Source: an uncultured Gemmatimonadota bacterium | GTDB lineage: Bacteria > Gemmatimonadota > Gemmatimonadetes > Gemmatimonadales > GWC2-71-9 | DNA: 27,955 bases | Assembly: GCA_946887295.1 (NCBI GenBank) | Contig: CAMPKP010000029.1 | Location: 1 to 27,955 of the forward strand | Direction of reading: 5' to 3' | Shown here: in pieces, positions 8,479-16,975 of the stretch | Numbering within the stretch: position 1 is the stretch's first letter | How the letters are laid out: each line of letters opens with the position of its first letter | The notes under the pieces: model-generated | Database searches by the model: none | What the model saw: only the letters and a program-made list of their open reading frames with translations | What the model was told of the DNA's origin: nothing | Translations under genes and position numbers: made by a program

Positions 8479-8507
8479 TTGACCCCATAGTCGCTCCGTC
8501 TTAGATT
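8479..8507 (+). promoter_or_regulatory. sigma-70-type promoter of the RsbRD-like gene
   Basis: TTGACC (8479-8484), a 17-base spacer and TAGATT (8502-8507). Transcription would start near 8514, and AGGGGG (8524-8529) lies seven bases before the ATG at 8537. This is one of the best canonical promoters in the window. Confidence 0.65.
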
Positions 8508-8536
8508 GCCGACACTCTTCACAAGGGGGACTGGTG

Positions 8537-9100
8537 ATGCGCGCTTCGCAACCAGCGTTGCTCGCCGCCGGCCGTGTCATCGTCGAGATGCGGGACGCGA
8601 TGGTCGTCCAGTGGGCCGATTGGCTGGGAGACCGGATCACCGCAGCCCCCACGATACCGCGCACCACGGTGGAGCGGGAGTTCCGGCTTCTGCTCGACGT
8701 CGTGTCCGAGATGGTCGGTCCCCTCAGACGCGAAGTCAACACCATCTGGTTCCGCGTGTGCGAGCATTACGGCCGAGTCGCCTCGGCCCGCGGCCTGGCG
8801 GCCGGCGAGGTGGTGGAGGAGCTCCAGTTTCTCCGCGAGCTGCTCACCCGCAACCTCGCCCCGGTCCTCGCGGCCATGCGCGCGCGGCAGGGCATGGCCA
8901 TCATGCTCCGGCTGAACCGCGTGCTCGACAAGGGCATCGCCGTGGCCGTGGTAGGCTATACCGACGCGCTCGTCGCCACGCTGTTCGCGCAGAACGGGGT
9001 GCCGACCGCGGGTGCCGAGTACGATCGAGCCGAAGTGGAGCGCCAGCTCGACACGCTGGAACACGAGTTCAACTCCCTGGTCAAGCAGCCGCAACGATAG
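8537..9100 (+). CDS. stand-alone RsbRD N-terminal-like helical protein
   Basis: A 187-aa, almost entirely helical, soluble protein. ATG 8537 is preferred over the adjacent GTG 8534 because AGGGGG is seven bases away. The middle resembles the RsbRD N-terminal sensor domain found at the front of stressosome proteins and some histidine kinases: a conserved helix around HYGRVASARGLAAGEVVEE followed by LQFLRELLTRNLAPVL, and later LNRVLDKGIAVAVVGYTDAL. There is no STAS, kinase or DNA-binding domain after it, so it may act as a free signal-binding or partner-binding module. The C-terminal 40 residues are charged and probably coiled coil. It is followed on the same strand by a glycosyltransferase. 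Family assignment is by visual pattern only and could be wrong. Confidence 0.6.
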   Translation: MRASQPALLAAGRVIVEMRDAMVVQWADWLGDRITAAPTIPRTTVEREFRLLLDVVSEMVGPLRREVNTIWFRVCEHYGRVASARGLAAGEVVEELQFLRELLTRNLAPVLAAMRARQGMAIMLRLNRVLDKGIAVAVVGYTDALVATLFAQNGVPTAGAEYDRAEVERQLDTLEHEFNSLVKQPQR

Positions 9101-9129
9101 TAGAGCTTCTCCCCGCCCTTCCCTGGCTC

Positions 9130-10257
9130 GTGCCCTTCGCGAGCCTCTTCCGTCTGGCCGACAACCGGCCGAACCTGTCCGAAGCCGTCCCCGCCGCCGG
9201 CACCCTGGTGACGGTCGTGATCCCCGCGCGCAACGAGTCGGCGACGATCGCCACGGTCGTCGGCTCGGTGCGCGCCTCGACCTACCAGCCGCTCGAGATC
9301 GTAGTGGTGGACGACCGCAGCACCGACGATACCGCGGCCATCGTGGAGCGGCTCGCGATGGAGGACGGCCGCCTTCGGCTGGTCCGCGGCGAGCCGCTGC
9401 CGGAAGGATGGTACGGGAAGCCGTGGGCTTGCGTCCAGGGATATCGCGCGGCGCGCGGCGACCTCCTCCTCTTCACCGACGCGGACACCCGGCACGAGCC
9501 GGAGCTTCTCGCGCGCGCGGTCGGCGCCCTGCGGGCCGAGCGGTCCGATCTGGTGACCGTGGCGCCCCGGCAGCGGTGCGAGACCTTCTGGGAGCGGGTG
9601 GTGATGCCGCAGATCTGGCTGCTGCTCGCCCTGCGCTATCACCCCTCGAGAGTGAACCGGGCCAGGCGCCAGCGCGACGTCATCGCCAACGGGCAGTTCA
9701 TCCTGGTGTCGCGGGAGAGCTACGAGGCGGTGGGTACCCATGGGGCGGTGAGGGACGAGGTCGCGGAGGATCTCGCCCTGGCGCAGGCGTTTCTCCGAGC
9801 AGGGCGGAAGCTTCATTTCGCGTTTGCGGAGCGGCTGATGCAGACGAGGATGTATCGGAGCCTGCCGGAACTGATCGAGGGGTGGTCGAAGAACGTGTAC
9901 CTCGGCGGCCGGCGGTCGTTTCCGGAGGAGCCCCGACTGCGCGCGCTGGTGCCCCTCATGCTGCTCGCGGGCTTCCTGTTCTGGCTGGCCCCTCCGGTAG
10001 TGCTGGCGATCACCGCCGCGACCGGTCCGGTGGGCCGTGCCGCGGCGGTCGCATCCGCACTCTCGGCGCTCTTCTGGATGGCGATCAGCTACGGAATGAG
10101 GATTCCAGCCTGGTACGGGCTCCTCTATCCTCTTGGCGCCCTGATGGGGTTGTACATCGCGGCGCGATCGACCTGGCGCGGATCGAGGCGGGTCGAATGG
10201 CGCGGGCGGATCTACCTCGACCAGCGCTCGCCGCGGAAGTCCGAGCGGCGCCGCTGA
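9130..10257 (+). CDS. family 2 glycosyltransferase, membrane-anchored
   Basis: 375 aa from the first usable start, GTG 9130; no ribosome binding site precedes it. The catalytic domain (about 25-260) has VVIPARNES, the nucleotide-binding VVVDDRST (Asp61, Asp62), the metal-binding DAD in FTDADTRH (117-119), the acceptor-base ED (213-214) and GWSKN (251-255). The C-terminus has three hydrophobic segments at about 272-345. This layout fits GT2 enzymes that glycosylate lipids such as hopanoids or carotenoids (HpnB- and CrtQ-like). The reading frame stays open upstream, and codons 9097-9129 read as more of a hydrophobic N-terminal anchor (IVELLPALPWLV) but begin with ATA, so the true start may be unusual. 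The stop is one base from that of the convergent gene. Confidence 0.85.
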   Translation: MPFASLFRLADNRPNLSEAVPAAGTLVTVVIPARNESATIATVVGSVRASTYQPLEIVVVDDRSTDDTAAIVERLAMEDGRLRLVRGEPLPEGWYGKPWACVQGYRAARGDLLLFTDADTRHEPELLARAVGALRAERSDLVTVAPRQRCETFWERVVMPQIWLLLALRYHPSRVNRARRQRDVIANGQFILVSRESYEAVGTHGAVRDEVAEDLALAQAFLRAGRKLHFAFAERLMQTRMYRSLPELIEGWSKNVYLGGRRSFPEEPRLRALVPLMLLAGFLFWLAPPVVLAITAATGPVGRAAAVASALSALFWMAISYGMRIPAWYGLLYPLGALMGLYIAARSTWRGSRRVEWRGRIYLDQRSPRKSERRR

Positions 10258-10258
10258 T

Positions 10259-10915
10259 CTATCTCCGATCCACCACCACGTTCTGCCTCGGAATCCCTCC
10301 ACCCAGCACGCGTCCTTCCGGGTCCACCTTGAGCCGGAACTCCACGTCGCCGATGGCCAACGACAGCGAATCGGGTCCGACCGGGCTCAGGGTGCCGCTC
10401 ACGGTCTGGCCGCCGCCGAGATTGAAGAAGGGTACCCGGTCAGGCGTGGCACCCTTGGCCCGCGAGCGACGGATCGCCTGCTCGAGCAGGGCGAAAGACA
10501 TGTTGAGATAGGGAATCGCGCCGGCCTCGGTCCCGAACACCCGGGTCTCGAGGGATTGCCCCATGATCGCGTCCACCGCGGCGCTGTCCTCCTTGAAGAT
10601 CACGCGGGCTCGCTGCACCAGTTTCGCTTTCACCCGGCCGCTGTCCGCATCCTCCCGTACCGCGACATCGATCATCGGCACCGACGCGTCGGGGGCCAGC
10701 ACCGCGGTGTACCGCTGGAAGGTGTGTTTGGAGTTGTTGAGGGTGAGCGTCCCCTGGATGTTGGTCGGCCCCCGGGAGAAAGTCTCGGTCGCCACGGTGT
10801 CACCGGAATGGCGCACCACGAACGTGCCGCTGTCCGCCGCCGTCTGGGCGACGGCTGGCAGAGTGGATCCGAGCAGAAGTGTCACCAGGCAGATCGATGC
10901 TTTCGCGTATGTCAT
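10259..10915 (-). CDS. exported protein of unknown function
   Basis: 218 aa. ATG 10915 is chosen because it begins a clear signal peptide, MTYAKASICLVTLLLGSTLP with cleavage after AVAQ, near residue 25. The mature part is rich in beta-strand pattern: TFVVRHSGDTVATETFSRG, LTLNNSKHTFQRYTAVLAP, and a final DVEFRLKVDPEGRVLGGGIP. This is like periplasmic proteins in many soil bacteria that have repeated DUF-type strands and a closing residue run about a sugar- or lipid-like ligand, but I do not recognise the family. It is convergent with the glycosyltransferase at 9130-10257 (1 bp apart) and divergent from the methyltransferase module. No ribosome binding site is visible. Confidence 0.75.
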   Translation of the reverse strand: MTYAKASICLVTLLLGSTLPAVAQTAADSGTFVVRHSGDTVATETFSRGPTNIQGTLTLNNSKHTFQRYTAVLAPDASVPMIDVAVREDADSGRVKAKLVQRARVIFKEDSAAVDAIMGQSLETRVFGTEAGAIPYLNMSFALLEQAIRRSRAKGATPDRVPFFNLGGGQTVSGTLSPVGPDSLSLAIGDVEFRLKVDPEGRVLGGGIPRQNVVVDRR

Positions 10916-11076
10916 TGCCACACAGTGGATTGAGGTTGAGCCGGAGGGCAGGCCGACGACGGATGGTAGCCACTTCAGGCGACCGAACGCAATCGCGTAC
11001 CTGCGCGCGGGCAATGGGTTCAGCAAGGGGCGAGCCCGAGGGCTAGGCTGGGTTCCGTTTCCACCCCGGAGCCCCG

Positions 11077-14058
11077 GTGAAGCTGGCGGTGCTGTTGAAG
11101 GGAGTCCGCGCGCTGGAAGACCTTCCCGCCCTCGCGGCCGCCCTGGGCCACGAGCCCCTCTGGGACCCGGTTCCGGGGGGGCGTGAGCCGGTCGTCGTGA
11201 TCGGGCGGCGGGGAGACTTCCCCTGGTACGCAGTGGCCGGAGAGCACGCGGCCGACAAGGCCCGCGCGCTGGCGCGGAGGCTTGCGGCTCGTGGCCGGCT
11301 CTGCGGCGCCATGGGTCTCGATCCGGGTGCCAGGCGGCTCACCCTCACGGTCTCGCTCGATGGCGCGCCGCGGCTCACGGTGGATCTCGACGCCCCCGAT
11401 GCGTCCGCGCTCGCGGCACTTGGCCGGCTCGCGTCCGGCGGCGGGTCCGGCGCGCCCGGCTACGCGGCGCAGGCGGCCGATGCCCTCGGTGGCGAGCCTG
11501 TCGGGCATCGGTTCTTCCGAGAGTTCCGAGCGACGCTGGAGCGCATGGCCGCCGGGCTCCCCGGCCCCTTTCCCGCCGCCGATCGGCATGCCGTCGCGCT
11601 CCTCCAGCTCATGCGCGTCCTCTTCCTCTATTTCATCCAGGCAAAGGGGTGGCTGGGCGGCAACGGCCGGTTCCTCGCCGAAGCGGTGGATGGTTGCCTG
11701 GCCGGAGGGCGCCGGCTCCATCGCGACCTGCTGCGTCCGCTTTTCTTCGGCACGCTCAACCGTCCCCTCGCCGAGCGGGGCCGGACGGCGCTCCGCTTCG
11801 GCCCGGTTCCGTTCCTGAATGGCGGCCTGTTCGAGCCTCACCCGCTGGAGCGAAAGCTGCCGGGCGACGTCTCGAACGACTGCTGGCGCGACACGTTCGA
11901 CCGCCTGTTCGAGCGCTTTCACTTCACCGTCGGAGAGGGAGAGCGCGGCTGCATCGCTCCCGACATGCTGGGCCGCGTCTTCGAAGGCGTGATGGCACCG
12001 GACGAGCGCCGCGCCTCGGGGACGTACTACACGCCGGCAGCCCTGGTCCAGGAGGTATTGGGTGAAGGTCTCGCCGCCATCGTCTCCGAGCGGATGGCCT
12101 GCTCACAGGCCGAAGCGGAGCGACGGCTCGCCGAACCGGACGAGGCCGTGCGGCGGGTGGTGCGGGGGCTCAGAATCCTCGACCCTGCGGTCGGCTCAGG
12201 CGCGTTCCTGCTGGGCGCACTCGACCGGCTCTCGTCGCTGGTCGCGGTCAATGGCGGGATGGCGCCGGCGCGAAGGCGCATCCTCCAGCGCAATCTGTTC
12301 GGCGTCGACCGAAACGGCGCGGCGGTCCGCCTCACCGAGCTGCGGCTGTGGCTGGCGGTCATCGCGGACGACCAGACCGAGCGCCCGCAAGACGTTCAGC
12401 CCCTGCCGAACCTCGATCGCCTGATCCGTCAGGGCGACAGCCTCTTCGATCCCGCGGGCTCGGGGTTCCGGATGCCGGCGGACCGACGACGCGCCTGGGC
12501 GCTGGCCGGACTGCGGCGAGCGGTCGTCATGGCCACCGGTCGGGGCAAGCGCTCGCTGCTTCGCGAGCTCGCCCGGGCCGAAGCGGAGATCGCCGAACGT
12601 TCGCTCGCGGGAGCCGATGAGGGATTGCGGCACACCATCGCCGAGTGCCTGCGGATCGCGCGGGGCGCCGACCTGTTCGGTGCCCGCAGGGGGCTGGACC
12701 CCGCAGGCTCCGCTCGCCTGGCGGACCTGCGCCGGGAGCTCCGGCAGGTCAGCGCGCTGCGGAGGTCGCTCGCCCGGGAGGGCGAGGTGCCCTGGTTCGA
12801 CTACCGGGTACAGTTCGCCGACGTGTTCGCGGCGGGCGGATTCGACCTCGTGGTGGGGAACCCGCCCTGGCTCCGTGCCGAACAGCTCCCGACCGAACTG
12901 CGGCGCCGTCTCGCGGGCCGTTACCGATGGTGGCGCGCGGGTGGCGCAGGCTACGCCAACCGTCCGGACCTGGCGGTCGCGTTCCTCGAGCGGTCGGTCG
13001 AGCTGGCGGCGCCGGGCGGCGTCATCGCCGTGCTGGTCCCCGCCAAGATCGCCACTGCAGGGTACGGCGCGGCGGCGCGGCACGCCCTCGCCGCCGAGAC
13101 GACGCTGGTGGCCGTCGCGGACCTTACCGGCAGCCCGCAAGCCTCGTTCGAGGCGACCGTGTATCCGCTGGCTCTGGTGGCCCGCAGGAAGGCCGCGCCC
13201 GCCCGTCATCCGGTGCGGGTATCCCTGGGCTCCGGCCCGACCGTGCCGCAGAGCGGCCTTCGGGGAGGTGGCCCCTGGATCCTGGGCCGCCAGCCGCTGC
13301 GCGACGCGATCGCCGCCGTGCGACAGGAGCATCCGAGGCTCGACTCGGTGGTCTCGTGCCATCTCGGCCTCAAGACGGGCGCCAACCGGATCTTCCTCGA
13401 TCCTCCCGAGGTCGAGACCGAGGTGCTCCGCTGGGCGCTTCGAGGCCGGGACATCGCTCCGTTCGTTCCGCACCACAGGACCCGCCTCCTGTGGACCCAT
13501 GGCTCCCACGGCTCGCCGTTGGCGCGGCTGCCGCCGAAGGCGGCGGCGTACCTGGCCGCGCACTTGGCGCTGCTCCGCTCGCGAACCGATTTCGCGGGCG
13601 GCGCGCCATGGACGCTGTTTCGAGTCCGGGCGGCGGCGGCGCCGCACCGAGTCGTGTGGGCCGATCTCGCGCGCGGGCTCCGGGCGGCTTCGCTCACCGG
13701 CCTTCACGACACCATCCCGCTCAACAGCTGCTACGTGGCTCTGGCGAGGTCGGATGCCGAGGCCGACCGCATCGCGGCATGGCTCAACAGCAGCTGGATG
13801 CGTGCGGCCGCGCGGGCGGGTGCGGTGCCGGCCGCCGGCGGATGCGCACGATACTCGGCGAACACCGTAGGATCACTGCCGCTGCCGGCCGGCGTGCTCG
13901 CCGACGCCGATCTCACCACACTCGCGCACTCGGCCCGCAACGGCGGCAGGGTGCAGGTCGAACTCGATGACGTCTCCGCCAGACACCTCGACCTCGGCCC
14001 ATCTCACCAGGCGGCGCTGCTCGCCTCGCTCGGAACAGGTGCCGACGATCGTGGCTGA
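11077..14058 (+). CDS. Eco57I/TaqI-type N6-adenine DNA methyltransferase (type IIG/PglX-like)
   Basis: 993 aa, started at GTG 11077 with GGAG five bases upstream. Residues 1-130 are an alpha/beta domain I cannot assign. About 145-330 is the helical region common to PglX and type IIG proteins (LLQLMRVLFLYFIQAKGWLG, then GTYYTP at 315-320). The catalytic core has motif I DPAVGSGAF (369-377), motif II FGVDRN (408-413), GDSLFD (453-458) and motif IV NPPW (595-598), the adenine-N6 signature. About 740-940 is a TaqI-like target-recognition region with LGLKTGANRIF and AAWLNSSW. It would methylate adenine in a specific DNA site using AdoMet. No PD-(D/E)xK or other nuclease motif was found. The 3' end overlaps the helicase gene by 8 bp, so the two proteins are probably made together as one system. 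Confidence 0.92.
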   Translation: MKLAVLLKGVRALEDLPALAAALGHEPLWDPVPGGREPVVVIGRRGDFPWYAVAGEHAADKARALARRLAARGRLCGAMGLDPGARRLTLTVSLDGAPRLTVDLDAPDASALAALGRLASGGGSGAPGYAAQAADALGGEPVGHRFFREFRATLERMAAGLPGPFPAADRHAVALLQLMRVLFLYFIQAKGWLGGNGRFLAEAVDGCLAGGRRLHRDLLRPLFFGTLNRPLAERGRTALRFGPVPFLNGGLFEPHPLERKLPGDVSNDCWRDTFDRLFERFHFTVGEGERGCIAPDMLGRVFEGVMAPDERRASGTYYTPAALVQEVLGEGLAAIVSERMACSQAEAERRLAEPDEAVRRVVRGLRILDPAVGSGAFLLGALDRLSSLVAVNGGMAPARRRILQRNLFGVDRNGAAVRLTELRLWLAVIADDQTERPQDVQPLPNLDRLIRQGDSLFDPAGSGFRMPADRRRAWALAGLRRAVVMATGRGKRSLLRELARAEAEIAERSLAGADEGLRHTIAECLRIARGADLFGARRGLDPAGSARLADLRRELRQVSALRRSLAREGEVPWFDYRVQFADVFAAGGFDLVVGNPPWLRAEQLPTELRRRLAGRYRWWRAGGAGYANRPDLAVAFLERSVELAAPGGVIAVLVPAKIATAGYGAAARHALAAETTLVAVADLTGSPQASFEATVYPLALVARRKAAPARHPVRVSLGSGPTVPQSGLRGGGPWILGRQPLRDAIAAVRQEHPRLDSVVSCHLGLKTGANRIFLDPPEVETEVLRWALRGRDIAPFVPHHRTRLLWTHGSHGSPLARLPPKAAAYLAAHLALLRSRTDFAGGAPWTLFRVRAAAAPHRVVWADLARGLRAASLTGLHDTIPLNSCYVALARSDAEADRIAAWLNSSWMRAAARAGAVPAAGGCARYSANTVGSLPLPAGVLADADLTTLAHSARNGGRVQVELDDVSARHLDLGPSHQAALLASLGTGADDRG

Positions 14059-16255
14059 AGCGCTGGCTCCGGTACCGGATCCCGTGGTGACGGCACTGCA
14101 TCCGGGCGACTGGATGCCGGCGGCCCAGGTCGCCCGGGCGATGGCGCGCCGCCTCGCCCCCGACGAGGACGCGGTGGACCCGCCCCCCGTGTGGCTGCGG
14201 CCCGAGCAGATCAGGAGTTTCCGCCGGACCCTGTACGCGCTGCGGCGGTATGGAGGAGCGCTGCTCGCTGACCCGGTCGGGAGCGGAAAGACCTACGTCG
14301 CGCTGGCCCTGGCGCGCGCGCTCAACCGGGGTCGGCCGACGGCGTGTCTGGTGCCCGCCACGCTGCTGGAGCAGTGGAGGACCACGGCGCGGGCCCTGGG
14401 CGTCGAGCTCGCCGCGGGCTCACACCAGGCGGCGAGCCGTGGGCGTATCTCCCCCGTGAGCCGAGGCCTGGTGATCATCGACGAAGCGCATCACTTCAGG
14501 AATCCCTCCACCTGGCGCTATCGCAACGTGGCACCGTGGCTGGTGGGCCGTCCGGTGCTGCTGGTCACCGCCACGCCGGTGGTGAACCGCCTCGACGACC
14601 TGCTCCACCAGCTCAGGCTCGGCATTCGCGACGACGCCCTGGCCGCCGATGGCGTGGCGTCCCTGAAGTCGCTGCTCGGCCGTGGATGCGGGTCGCCGGC
14701 GCTCGGCAGGCTCGTCATCGAGACACCCTGCCCTGACGGCCTTCGGCCGAAGCGACGCGGCGTCGCGACGACACCGGATCCGGCCGAACGGGAGAGAGCC
14801 GCCGAAGCGCTCGCGTCGATCGACAGGCTGCGGCTTTCCCGGGTGCCGGGAACGGAGGCGCTGGTGCGCGCGGTGCTCCGGCGCGCCGCCGCATCGAGCC
14901 CCGCGGCGCTGCTCGCGGTGCTCCGGCGCTATCGCAGTCTCCTGCTCCACGCCAGGGAGGCAGCCGGAGCCGGGCGCTCGCTGGAGCGCGCCGCGATTCG
15001 CCGCTTCACCGGTGAGATGGAGGATCAGCTCGTCTGGTGGGAGCTGCTGCCGGCGGGCGGGGATCCCAACGATCTCCAGCTCGACGACCTCGACAGGATC
15101 GACGAGGTTCTCCACGATGCCGCCAGGGCCGAGGAGCAGACCGACCGGAAGCTCGAGCGGCTCCGCGCGCTGCTCGCCGATGGACGGCCGACCCTCGTGT
15201 TCACCTCGAGCCGCGCGACGGTCCGCTACCTTCGCGATCGCCTCGGCCCTCCTCCAGTCGCGTGGTGTACCGGAGTCCGGGCGGGTGTGGGACACTGCCC
15301 CATGCCGCGTCCTGCCGTGCTGGGCTGGTTCCGCCAGGCCGCCGAGCGGATCGACCCGCGGCGGGCGCACCATCTCGTCGTGACCGATGTCGCGGCCGAA
15401 GGCCTCGATCTCCAGCGCGCGGCTCGAGTGGTCCACTACGATCTCCCGTGGACGCCGATGCGAATGGAGCAGCGGGAAGGAAGAGCGGTGCGACTCGGCT
15501 CGGCGCACGACGAGGTGGAGGTGGTCGCGTTCAGGCCGGCACCGGCCATCGATCGGGCGCTGCGAATCACGCAGGCGCTGGTTCTGAAGGCCCGGCTCCC
15601 CTCGGCCGCCGGGCTGGGCTCCGAGGGCCGGGGACTCTGGCGCTGGCGGTCGGAGCTGGCGGACGCCTTCGCGGGAGGAGAGGCCGCGCCGGGGGCGGCG
15701 GTGGTTCCGAGAGGACCTGCCGGAGTGCTCGCCGGCTTCGAGCTGTGCGGTCTCGGCCCTGGCTCGGAGAGCAGGCTCGCTTCCGCCCTCGTGTGGATCG
15801 ACCCGGACGGCGGATGGACGGAGGAGGAGCGAATCGTGGCCGCCCGGCTCGCGGATGCGGCGAGGTGCCCTCCGGCGGCACCCGACGCGGCTCGGCTGCG
15901 CGAAGCGCTCTCGCTCGTAGCCGGTCCGGTGCGCTCGCGGCTCGCGCTGGCCCGCGGCAGCCGGTGGGTCGCGCCCGCGGCGGAACCCGGGGCCCACCGG
16001 GTGGCGCTGAGGCTGCACGAGGGTATTCGAGCGGCCGCACCGCGGCGGGATCTGGATGCGCTCGCGGACCTGGAGCGAGCGCTGGCGTTCGTGGGGCGGG
16101 GACACACCGCGGGAGAGTCCGCGGAGCTGGAACGGCTGGCAGGGATGCCGGAAGCGGAGTTCGCCCGGCGTGTGCGGCGACTGCCGCCGCCTGGCCCACG
16201 CTATGACGCGATCGAGGTACGACTCGGCGGGCTGCTGCTCTTCGTTCCGGGGTGA
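14051..16255 (+). CDS. compact superfamily 2 (SNF2/HepA-like) ATPase partnered with the methyltransferase
   Basis: 734 aa if GTG 14051 is used, which overlaps the methyltransferase stop by 8 bp; an ATG at 13967 would add 28 residues of overlap. Motifs of a DNA-dependent ATPase are complete: Walker A DPVGSGKT (74-81), DEAHH (144-148), VTATPV (172-177), VVTDVAAEGLDLQ (443-455) and the arginine finger motif QREGRAVRLG (474-483). The order and spacing are SNF2/HepA-like. Walker A differs from the usual DEVGLGKT. Residues 500-734 are a helical C-terminus with no HKD, PD-(D/E)xK or HNH nuclease motif that I can see. SNF2-type helicases accompany methyltransferases in DISARM and related defence systems, where they translocate on DNA. 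Here I infer an analogous role. Housekeeping genes flank the pair. Confidence 0.9.
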   Translation: MAEALAPVPDPVVTALHPGDWMPAAQVARAMARRLAPDEDAVDPPPVWLRPEQIRSFRRTLYALRRYGGALLADPVGSGKTYVALALARALNRGRPTACLVPATLLEQWRTTARALGVELAAGSHQAASRGRISPVSRGLVIIDEAHHFRNPSTWRYRNVAPWLVGRPVLLVTATPVVNRLDDLLHQLRLGIRDDALAADGVASLKSLLGRGCGSPALGRLVIETPCPDGLRPKRRGVATTPDPAERERAAEALASIDRLRLSRVPGTEALVRAVLRRAAASSPAALLAVLRRYRSLLLHAREAAGAGRSLERAAIRRFTGEMEDQLVWWELLPAGGDPNDLQLDDLDRIDEVLHDAARAEEQTDRKLERLRALLADGRPTLVFTSSRATVRYLRDRLGPPPVAWCTGVRAGVGHCPMPRPAVLGWFRQAAERIDPRRAHHLVVTDVAAEGLDLQRAARVVHYDLPWTPMRMEQREGRAVRLGSAHDEVEVVAFRPAPAIDRALRITQALVLKARLPSAAGLGSEGRGLWRWRSELADAFAGGEAAPGAAVVPRGPAGVLAGFELCGLGPGSESRLASALVWIDPDGGWTEEERIVAARLADAARCPPAAPDAARLREALSLVAGPVRSRLALARGSRWVAPAAEPGAHRVALRLHEGIRAAAPRRDLDALADLERALAFVGRGHTAGESAELERLAGMPEAEFARRVRRLPPPGPRYDAIEVRLGGLLLFVPG

Positions 16256-16312: not shown

Positions 16313-16975
16313 ATGCACAATCTCCGCACCGTGCTGTTCGACCTCGACGGCACGCTGATCGATTCGGTTCGACTGATCCTGGACAGCTATCATCATACCC
16401 TGGCCACGCATGGCCTTCCGCCTCGCACCGACGAGGAATGGCTGGAGGGGGTCGGCACACCGCTCATCGCACAATTCGGCGCACTGCGAGAGACGGCCGG
16501 CATGGTGGACGCGCTCATCGCCACGTACCGTGAGTACAACCTGAAGCATCACGACAGCATGGTCACGGTCTACCCCGGCGTGGTGGACGTCGTCCGGGAG
16601 CTCAAGCAGGTGGGCATCGGCACCGGGCTGGTCACCAGCAAGAACCGCTCGGGGGCGATCCGCGGGCTGGCGCTGGCGCAGCTCGAGCCGCTGATGGACG
16701 TGCTGGTCTGCGCCGACGAGGTGGACAACCCCAAGCCCCACCCGGAGCCGGTCGAGAAGGCGGTGCGCCTGCTCGGCGCCGATCCGACCACAACGGTGTA
16801 CGTCGGCGACAGCATTCACGACATGCGGTCCGGCCGCGCGGCGGGCGTGCGAACGGCAGCGGTACTTTGGGGCCCGTTTGGACGGAGCCACCTGGAGGAG
16901 GCCCAGCCGGACTACTGGCTGGAGCGGCCCTCGGATGTGCTGGACCTGGTGGGGGCGAGGAAGCCCTCACCCTGA
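16313..16975 (+). CDS. HAD-family phosphatase (phosphoglycolate/pyrophosphatase PpaX-like)
   Basis: A 220-aa cytoplasmic hydrolase of HAD subfamily IA. Motif I is DLDGT (10-14) with nucleophile Asp10 and acid Asp12, motif II is the Thr/Ser of LVTSKNR, motif III is NPKPHPEP and motif IV is VYVGDSIHDM. The helical cap between residues 18 and 90 is the type found in phosphoglycolate phosphatase and PpaX. It removes phosphate from a small metabolite; substrate choice (phosphoglycolate, pyrophosphate or sugar phosphates) cannot be read from sequence. The ATG is preceded by a -10-like hexamer rather than a ribosome binding site, so the transcript may be leaderless. It converges on the kinase gene with a 21-bp gap. 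Confidence 0.93.
   Translation: MHNLRTVLFDLDGTLIDSVRLILDSYHHTLATHGLPPRTDEEWLEGVGTPLIAQFGALRETAGMVDALIATYREYNLKHHDSMVTVYPGVVDVVRELKQVGIGTGLVTSKNRSGAIRGLALAQLEPLMDVLVCADEVDNPKPHPEPVEKAVRLLGADPTTTVYVGDSIHDMRSGRAAGVRTAAVLWGPFGRSHLEEAQPDYWLERPSDVLDLVGARKPSP

Follow-up and report, generated by a model that had tools for sequence, protein, structure and literature searches.

A methyltransferase and SNF2 ATPase gene pair of Gemmatimonadota, probably a core-genome epigenetic module of mostly vertical descent

Few DNA methyltransferases are of the core-genome kind, and those that have been studied well, Dam, CcrM and CamA, act alone; we know of no SNF2 partner of CamA. Type ISP enzymes such as LlaGI and LlaBIII hold a nuclease, a motor and a methyltransferase in one chain. 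DISARM (defence island system associated with restriction-modification) is outlined as a methyltransferase with DrmA, DrmB and DrmC (PMC9142583). Here we analyze a stretch of 27,955 nucleotides from an uncultured Gemmatimonadota bacterium (assembly GCA_946887295.1, contig CAMPKP010000029.1, positions 1 to 27,955; this whole stretch is called the window), in which the gene for an adenine DNA methyltransferase (MTase) is followed by an overlapping gene for a SNF2/SF2 ATPase (the helicase). We favor the reading that the two genes probably form a core-genome, mostly vertically inherited, epigenetic N6-methyladenine (m6A) module of Gemmatimonadota with a dedicated SNF2 motor.

The MTase gene lies on the forward strand at 11077..14058, starts with GTG and encodes a 993-aa adenine (N6) enzyme of the Eco57I family (Pfam matches Eco57I, 1.1e-19, and N6_Mtase, 2.8e-9; AlphaFold pLDDT 89.1, pTM 0.83). 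Across 90 aligned sequences, D369, P370, G373 and G375 of the S-adenosylmethionine-binding motif I, DPAVGSG (residues 369-375; 12181..12201, forward strand), and the catalytic motif IV, NPPW (residues 595-598; 12859..12870, forward strand), are unchanged. The helicase gene, also on the forward strand and with a GTG start, occupies 14051..16255 or begins at 14039 (AlphaFold pLDDT 88.1, pTM 0.88), and its product matches Helicase_C (2.3e-13), ResIII (5.8e-9) and SNF2-rel_dom (1.2e-8). It has two RecA lobes with conserved SF2 motifs, as in ATPases of the SNF2 family. In 73 helicases, G107 of Walker A, PVGSGKT (14273..14293), is invariant, with G105 and K108 kept in at least 90%, while D172, E173 and H175 of Walker B, DEAH (14480..14491), and Q502, R503, G505 and R506 of motif VI, QREGR (15470..15484), are invariant; all three motifs are encoded on the forward strand.

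Among about 8000 candidates scored, more than 2000 homologues of each protein were found at E<=1e-3; the closest named relatives of the window pair are Gemmatimonadales metagenome assemblies, with locus L001 at 79% identity. Of 90 deduplicated loci, 83 contain the MTase open reading frame (ORF) and 77 extend at least 1.2 kb past the MTase stop. A helicase adjoins the MTase in 76 of these 77, including L007 and L118, and the sole exception is L125. With so many homologues and so regular an adjoining helicase, the pair is not a chance arrangement. An earlier note on this DNA had described an Eco57I-type adenine MTase and a compact SNF2/SF2 ATPase as an overlapping two-gene unit among housekeeping genes, and the Pfam matches, the pairing and the flank annotation agree with that description. 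The overlap is 8 bp, as it stated, with a helicase start at GTG 14051 and 20 bp with one at GTG 14039. The longest open frame of the helicase runs from ATG 13967 to 16255, and this ATG is an unlikely start. P0123 from the database, identical along 734 aa, has the length predicted by GTG 14051, and starts matching GTG 14051 are found in 2 of 20 aligned helicase homologues (P0128, P0173) and those matching GTG 14039 in 5 of 20 (P0161, P0179, P0191, P0234, P0240). Because the codon at 14051 is GTC or GTA in two related loci, the start is left between the two GTG codons.

The distribution of the pair was counted in one family, that of the L001 genome (G001), which comprises 102 mostly incomplete genomes. 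The MTase was matched at E<=1e-30 in 88 of the 102 and rpoB, used as a yardstick of completeness, in 69; 61 of these 69 carry the MTase. HsdM_N, of the type I systems that are typically mobile, occurs in 15 of the 102. Near-universality in the family and vertical inheritance, by which core-genome orphan methyltransferases are recognized, are both found, whereas at class level the MTase is present in only 132 of an even sample of 295 genomes. The helicase was matched in 102 genomes of that sample, all of them within the 132. For the 30 genomes with an MTase but no helicase match, 20 loci were examined: 17 have a diverged helicase beside the MTase, two have the MTase gene split by an insert and one lies at a contig end, and a helicase is present in all three of the latter genomes. 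Among the other ten genomes, a helicase is present in G059 and G097 and strongly matched in G130, G141 and G277. Partial or separate SNF2 matches occur in G014, G057 and G226; G157 and G186 gave no match at E<=1e-10. In-frame stops in some whole-genome matches had raised the possibility of decay, which was set aside for L002, L012, L030 and L224, each of which has a long open frame across the gene.

A helicase without an MTase was found in none of the 102 helicase-bearing genomes of the class sample, while one genome has the MTase alone, and the MTase therefore looks like the senior partner. The same count speaks against another explanation, in which the main role falls to the SNF2 protein, as a recycler or repair motor like RapA or CSB, with the MTase supplying information on strand or location. 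The helicase does resemble such motors, its top four Foldseek matches being RapA (2) and CSB (2), with the structure matches covering about residues 66-562. We consider this explanation improbable.

The pair mostly retains one chromosomal neighborhood. ORFs were clustered across the 90 loci, 12 duplicate loci having been removed beforehand. At least two of seven upstream marker clusters (NUDIX, MntR, MntH, hydrolase, GT2, S66 peptidase and C10) are present in 30 of the 41 first-tier loci with at least 6 kb upstream, and one of seven downstream markers in 38 of the 48 with at least 3 kb downstream, the HAD phosphatase in 32. The corresponding figures for divergent-tier loci are 10 of 20 upstream and 14 of 17 downstream. 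Most loci without marker neighbors carry other recurring neighbors, and L052 carries none. This last locus, from a member of the Lujinxingiaceae outside Gemmatimonadota, holds a distant MTase-helicase pair at 35% identity with no neighbors in common.

The descent of the pair was compared with that of rpoB in 21 genomes, since of 30 chosen, eight had no rpoB match and one (G008) a broken rpoB. The MTase tree has 13 of 18 splits in common with the rpoB tree and the helicase tree 10 of 18, with no conflicting branches at a support of at least 95, and the two protein trees have 8 of 18 splits in common with each other. Distances correlate with those of rpoB at r=0.71 for the MTase and r=0.73 for the helicase, values reached in 0 of 5000 permutations. 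Because the neighborhood is mostly kept and the trees are congruent with rpoB, the pair is old and mostly vertically inherited. No relatives of the pair were found in viral contigs, and in 5 phage and 331 plasmid records the matches were all partial, below 60% identity and short of 80% coverage.

Restriction and BREX (bacteriophage exclusion)-type enzymes often switch targets through a swapped or fast-changing recognition domain. The target-recognition region of the MTase (residues 706-900, 13192..13776, forward strand; approximate boundaries set by us) lies inside the part matching CamA, M.BseCI and MmeI and shows no sign of swapping: among 179 sequences (15,930 pairs), its identity tracks that of the catalytic core with r=0.953 and a largest shortfall of 0.17.

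The earlier note had taken the locus for a phage-defence or restriction system. We instead prefer a housekeeping, epigenetic role over a movable defence, because the pair is near-universal in the family, keeps its neighborhood, is congruent with rpoB, and has a steady recognition region, and because no close relative was found in viral, phage or plasmid collections; a mobile defence island is not supported by the kept neighborhood and the tree congruence. The strongest rival is a vertically inherited defence that needs no nuclease, in which the MTase marks self and the SNF2 motor, on unmarked DNA, blocks replication or expression in a BREX-like manner. The neighborhood, the near-universality, the rpoB congruence and the unswapped target-recognition domain (TRD) all speak against it, as do the absence of defence neighbors in the window and the genome that has the MTase without the motor. 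We judge this rival unlikely, if still one to be reckoned with.

Several points weigh against the epigenetic reading. Vertical descent and near-universality alone do not exclude defence, and the SNF2-MTase partnerships of known function (DISARM, BREX, type ISP) are mostly defensive. The best PADLOC models are likewise from DISARM, DrmMI for the MTase (101 bits, nearly tied with the type IIG model at 96) and DrmD for the helicase. Some of the 88 family matches are fragments only, and the 69 rpoB matches are an imperfect yardstick, the MTase being a longer target than the rpoB domain and so favored. The MTase is missing from 8 of these 69 genomes, so the pair is dispensable, and 163 of the 295 class genomes have no MTase match at E<=1e-30. 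In G186 (L234:7639-8676), the first ~350 MTase codons are left in the usual upstream neighborhood with no helicase, which is a natural loss of the pair. The neighborhood figures describe this locus alone, without a genome-wide synteny baseline, and one well-supported (at least 95) conflict between the MTase and helicase trees concerns the position of G010. The comparison of recognition region and core covers MTase homologues alone, with no restriction family beside them. Moreover, conservation in the near set is 0.61 in the recognition region and 0.68-0.73 in the core; specificity may therefore drift. Finally, the assignment of a target motif, described below, is unsure because the RGATCY enzyme was not found.

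Whether the locus could restrict DNA by itself depends on the two domains outside the parts already described. The nuclease of MmeI and DrdV lies N-terminal to the part of these enzymes that is matched by the MTase. That structural match begins at MTase residue 139-140, against residue 159 of MmeI and 148 of DrdV, and places the N-terminal domain of the MTase (residues 1-105, 11077..11391, forward strand) where the nuclease of its relatives would be; the spacer-MTase-TRD architecture of type IIG/IIL enzymes is also present. Restriction by a hidden or unusual nuclease, in this domain or in the C-terminal domain of the helicase (15644..16252, forward strand; beyond the structure-matched part and with no Pfam family above cut-off), would fit this position and the predicted order of three strands, helix and strand, which is restriction-endonuclease-like. 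No conserved D...(D/E)xK is found in the MTase N-terminus in three homologue sets, the domain being viewed within the whole chain only, and within the first 150 residues no lysine reaches 70% conservation in any of the sets. Because it sits at the nuclease place of its relatives without conserved catalytic residues, the MTase is most likely non-cutting, and the domain may be a degenerate or replaced nuclease domain. The unswapped recognition region also argues against a hidden nuclease, which we regard as very improbable. A joint loss of the N-terminal domain and the helicase had been suspected and was rejected.

The genome with the solo MTase offers a view of the possible target and a natural test of the need for the motor. 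Enzymes of the CamA/MmeI/PglX-type architecture often recognize asymmetric sites. In G157 (locus L125), a whole MTase is kept between divergent-tier neighbors, and no helicase was found at the locus or elsewhere in the genome at E<=1e-10. This genome is probably that of Gemmatirosa kalamazoonensis KBS708, and the Gemmatirosa methylome has three m6A motifs, RGATCY, ATGCAC and CCAGN7TCA, each more than 99% methylated (PMC3974934). In G157, only two loci are hit by the Eco57I and N6_Mtase models, the MTase in this slot and an HsdM-like gene. Because the bipartite CCAGN7TCA suits the HsdM-like gene, ATGCAC and RGATCY are left for the slot MTase, whose target may be ATGCAC (preferred) or RGATCY, unless enzymes of other families make both. 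A D12 methylase as the RGATCY enzyme was rejected, the D12 family having 0 hits in G157 in a search confined to that family. If the assignment is right, the MTase would be active and able to work without the motor. ATGCAC occurs 232 times in 957 kb of tier 1 loci (239 expected) and 223 times in 638 kb of tier 2 (228 expected), and since it is neither enriched nor avoided, these counts are uninformative on the motif.

We then propose a model for the epigenetic module. The MTase, with its CamA/MmeI/PglX architecture, would methylate the host chromosome at a single short motif that is steady and probably asymmetric and most likely does not cut DNA. The second protein would be a translationally coupled SNF2 double-strand-DNA translocase, the working partner of the MTase and perhaps in physical complex with it. 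The motor most likely moves along DNA or clears bound proteins, so that sites get methylated or the mark is read, and the output would not be restriction but an epigenetic effect on gene expression or chromosome maintenance. It is tempting to speculate, as a tentative extension, that the pair is a bacterial epigenetic module akin to chromatin remodellers, in which a SNF2 motor lastingly tied to a steady-target core methylase, and inherited vertically across the class, opens covered DNA or reads the mark.

In the window, the pair is preceded by genes for ZIP, a multicopper oxidase, MntH, MntR, a NUDIX protein, an alpha/beta hydrolase and GT2, and followed by genes for a HAD phosphatase, a hybrid histidine kinase, a PHO4-type transporter, GT4 and HlyIII/TrhA. 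The HpnB-like GT2 glycosyltransferase (8506..10257, forward strand) is the recurrent upstream neighbor and the PpaX-like HAD phosphatase (16313..16975, forward strand) the recurrent downstream one. Just 5' of the pair, 10259-11026 on the reverse strand encodes a conserved 255-aa protein without Pfam or NCBIfam match, whose cluster (C20) is present in 10 of the 90 loci. An ECF sigma factor, a zf-HC2 anti-sigma-like protein and DUF4097 proteins (clusters C6, C11 and C5) lie near the pair in many loci, on a side that varies by lineage.

The inserts that split the MTase gene are of separate interest. In G067, an 11.6-kb element (L223:1455-13098) interrupts the gene before its last ~75 codons. It has 40-nt terminal inverted repeats that are 83% complementary and a target duplication of 14 bp (16 with two ambiguous bases), and encodes Cas1 (PF01867, 3.1e-42); its DNA_pol_B_2 match is weak (0.0018) and falls short of the cut-off. 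The ends and the integrase mark the element as casposon-like, with the polymerase still a candidate. In G202 (L201, L224), the same MTase codon holds an insert whose inverted ends are similar; the one long ORF in the ~2.5 kb seen of one end has no Pfam match. The helicase of G202 is on another contig as a 748-aa open frame. G067 and G202 were therefore rejected as cases of helicase-less MTases, the genes being split by inserts and helicases present in both genomes. Casposons are described in outline as sitting at tRNA 3' ends and elsewhere (PMC9939771), and a search under the name Gemmatimonadetes returned no literature linking them with this group.

If the epigenetic reading is true, this core methylase with its steady SNF2 partner would add a new mode of bacterial epigenetics, kept across a soil phylum that has been little studied. 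Under the chromatin-remodeller-like extension, DISARM- or BREX-like defence pairs could be offshoots of a housekeeping module, or have a common ancestor with one, rather than only the other way round. Defence finders that score lone MTase or SNF2 matches may mistake such housekeeping genes for DISARM or BREX remnants. The reading is directly testable, as cultured strains exist and a methylome is public (PMC3974934), from a strain that is probably the solo-form genome. No description of this MTase-SNF2 pair was found in a literature search of titles and abstract openings, which covered few subscription papers.

By the tests made, the pair belongs to none of DISARM, BREX, type IIG and type ISP. 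The helicase scores 98.5 bits against the NCBIfam DrmD model, far under the cut-off of 610, and for the PglX/BrxX of BREX, which has the helicase BrxHI, the MTase scores 25-45 bits in NCBIfam PglX models with cut-offs of 400-900 (best 44.9 against 900). PADLOC detected no DISARM (DrmA, DrmB, DrmC) or BREX (PglZ, BrxC) part among the 15 flanking window proteins, which gave two weak generic matches, MntR to a CARF model and the HAD protein to a hydrolase model. PF09369, the MZB/DUF1998 domain of DrmB, is found in 0 of the 102 family genomes at E<=1e-5, with positive controls at 8 of 14. A DISARM or BREX remnant is rejected on these sub-cut-off scores, missing MZB and missing partners. As far as tested, no DISARM or BREX part was recognized around the pair, BREX parts being sought among the flanking window proteins and DISARM parts also in the commonest neighbor clusters of the other loci. 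The earlier note was thus right that no DISARM, BREX or nuclease partner is near, and no profile match, neighborhood or active nuclease was recognized that would make this a known system, the MTase N-terminal and helicase C-terminal domains being viewed only within whole chains. Unlike type ISP enzymes, the locus has two genes and no recognized nuclease; the matched ISP structure, 5ffj, is itself a nuclease-deletion mutant. Unlike the fused nuclease-methyltransferases of the MmeI/type IIL-IIG group, the MTase lacks conserved nuclease residues, has a separate SNF2 gene and is near-universal in its family. Among solved folds, the one closest to the predicted MTase model is that of CamA, an orphan core-genome methylase from C. 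difficile, with a match that begins at residue 287; the solved CamA chains are numbered to 577, against the 993 aa of the MTase. The likeness to CamA thus extends from fold to a core-genome distribution, and the pair follows the same pattern of distribution and inheritance as core-genome epigenetic methylases of this kind.

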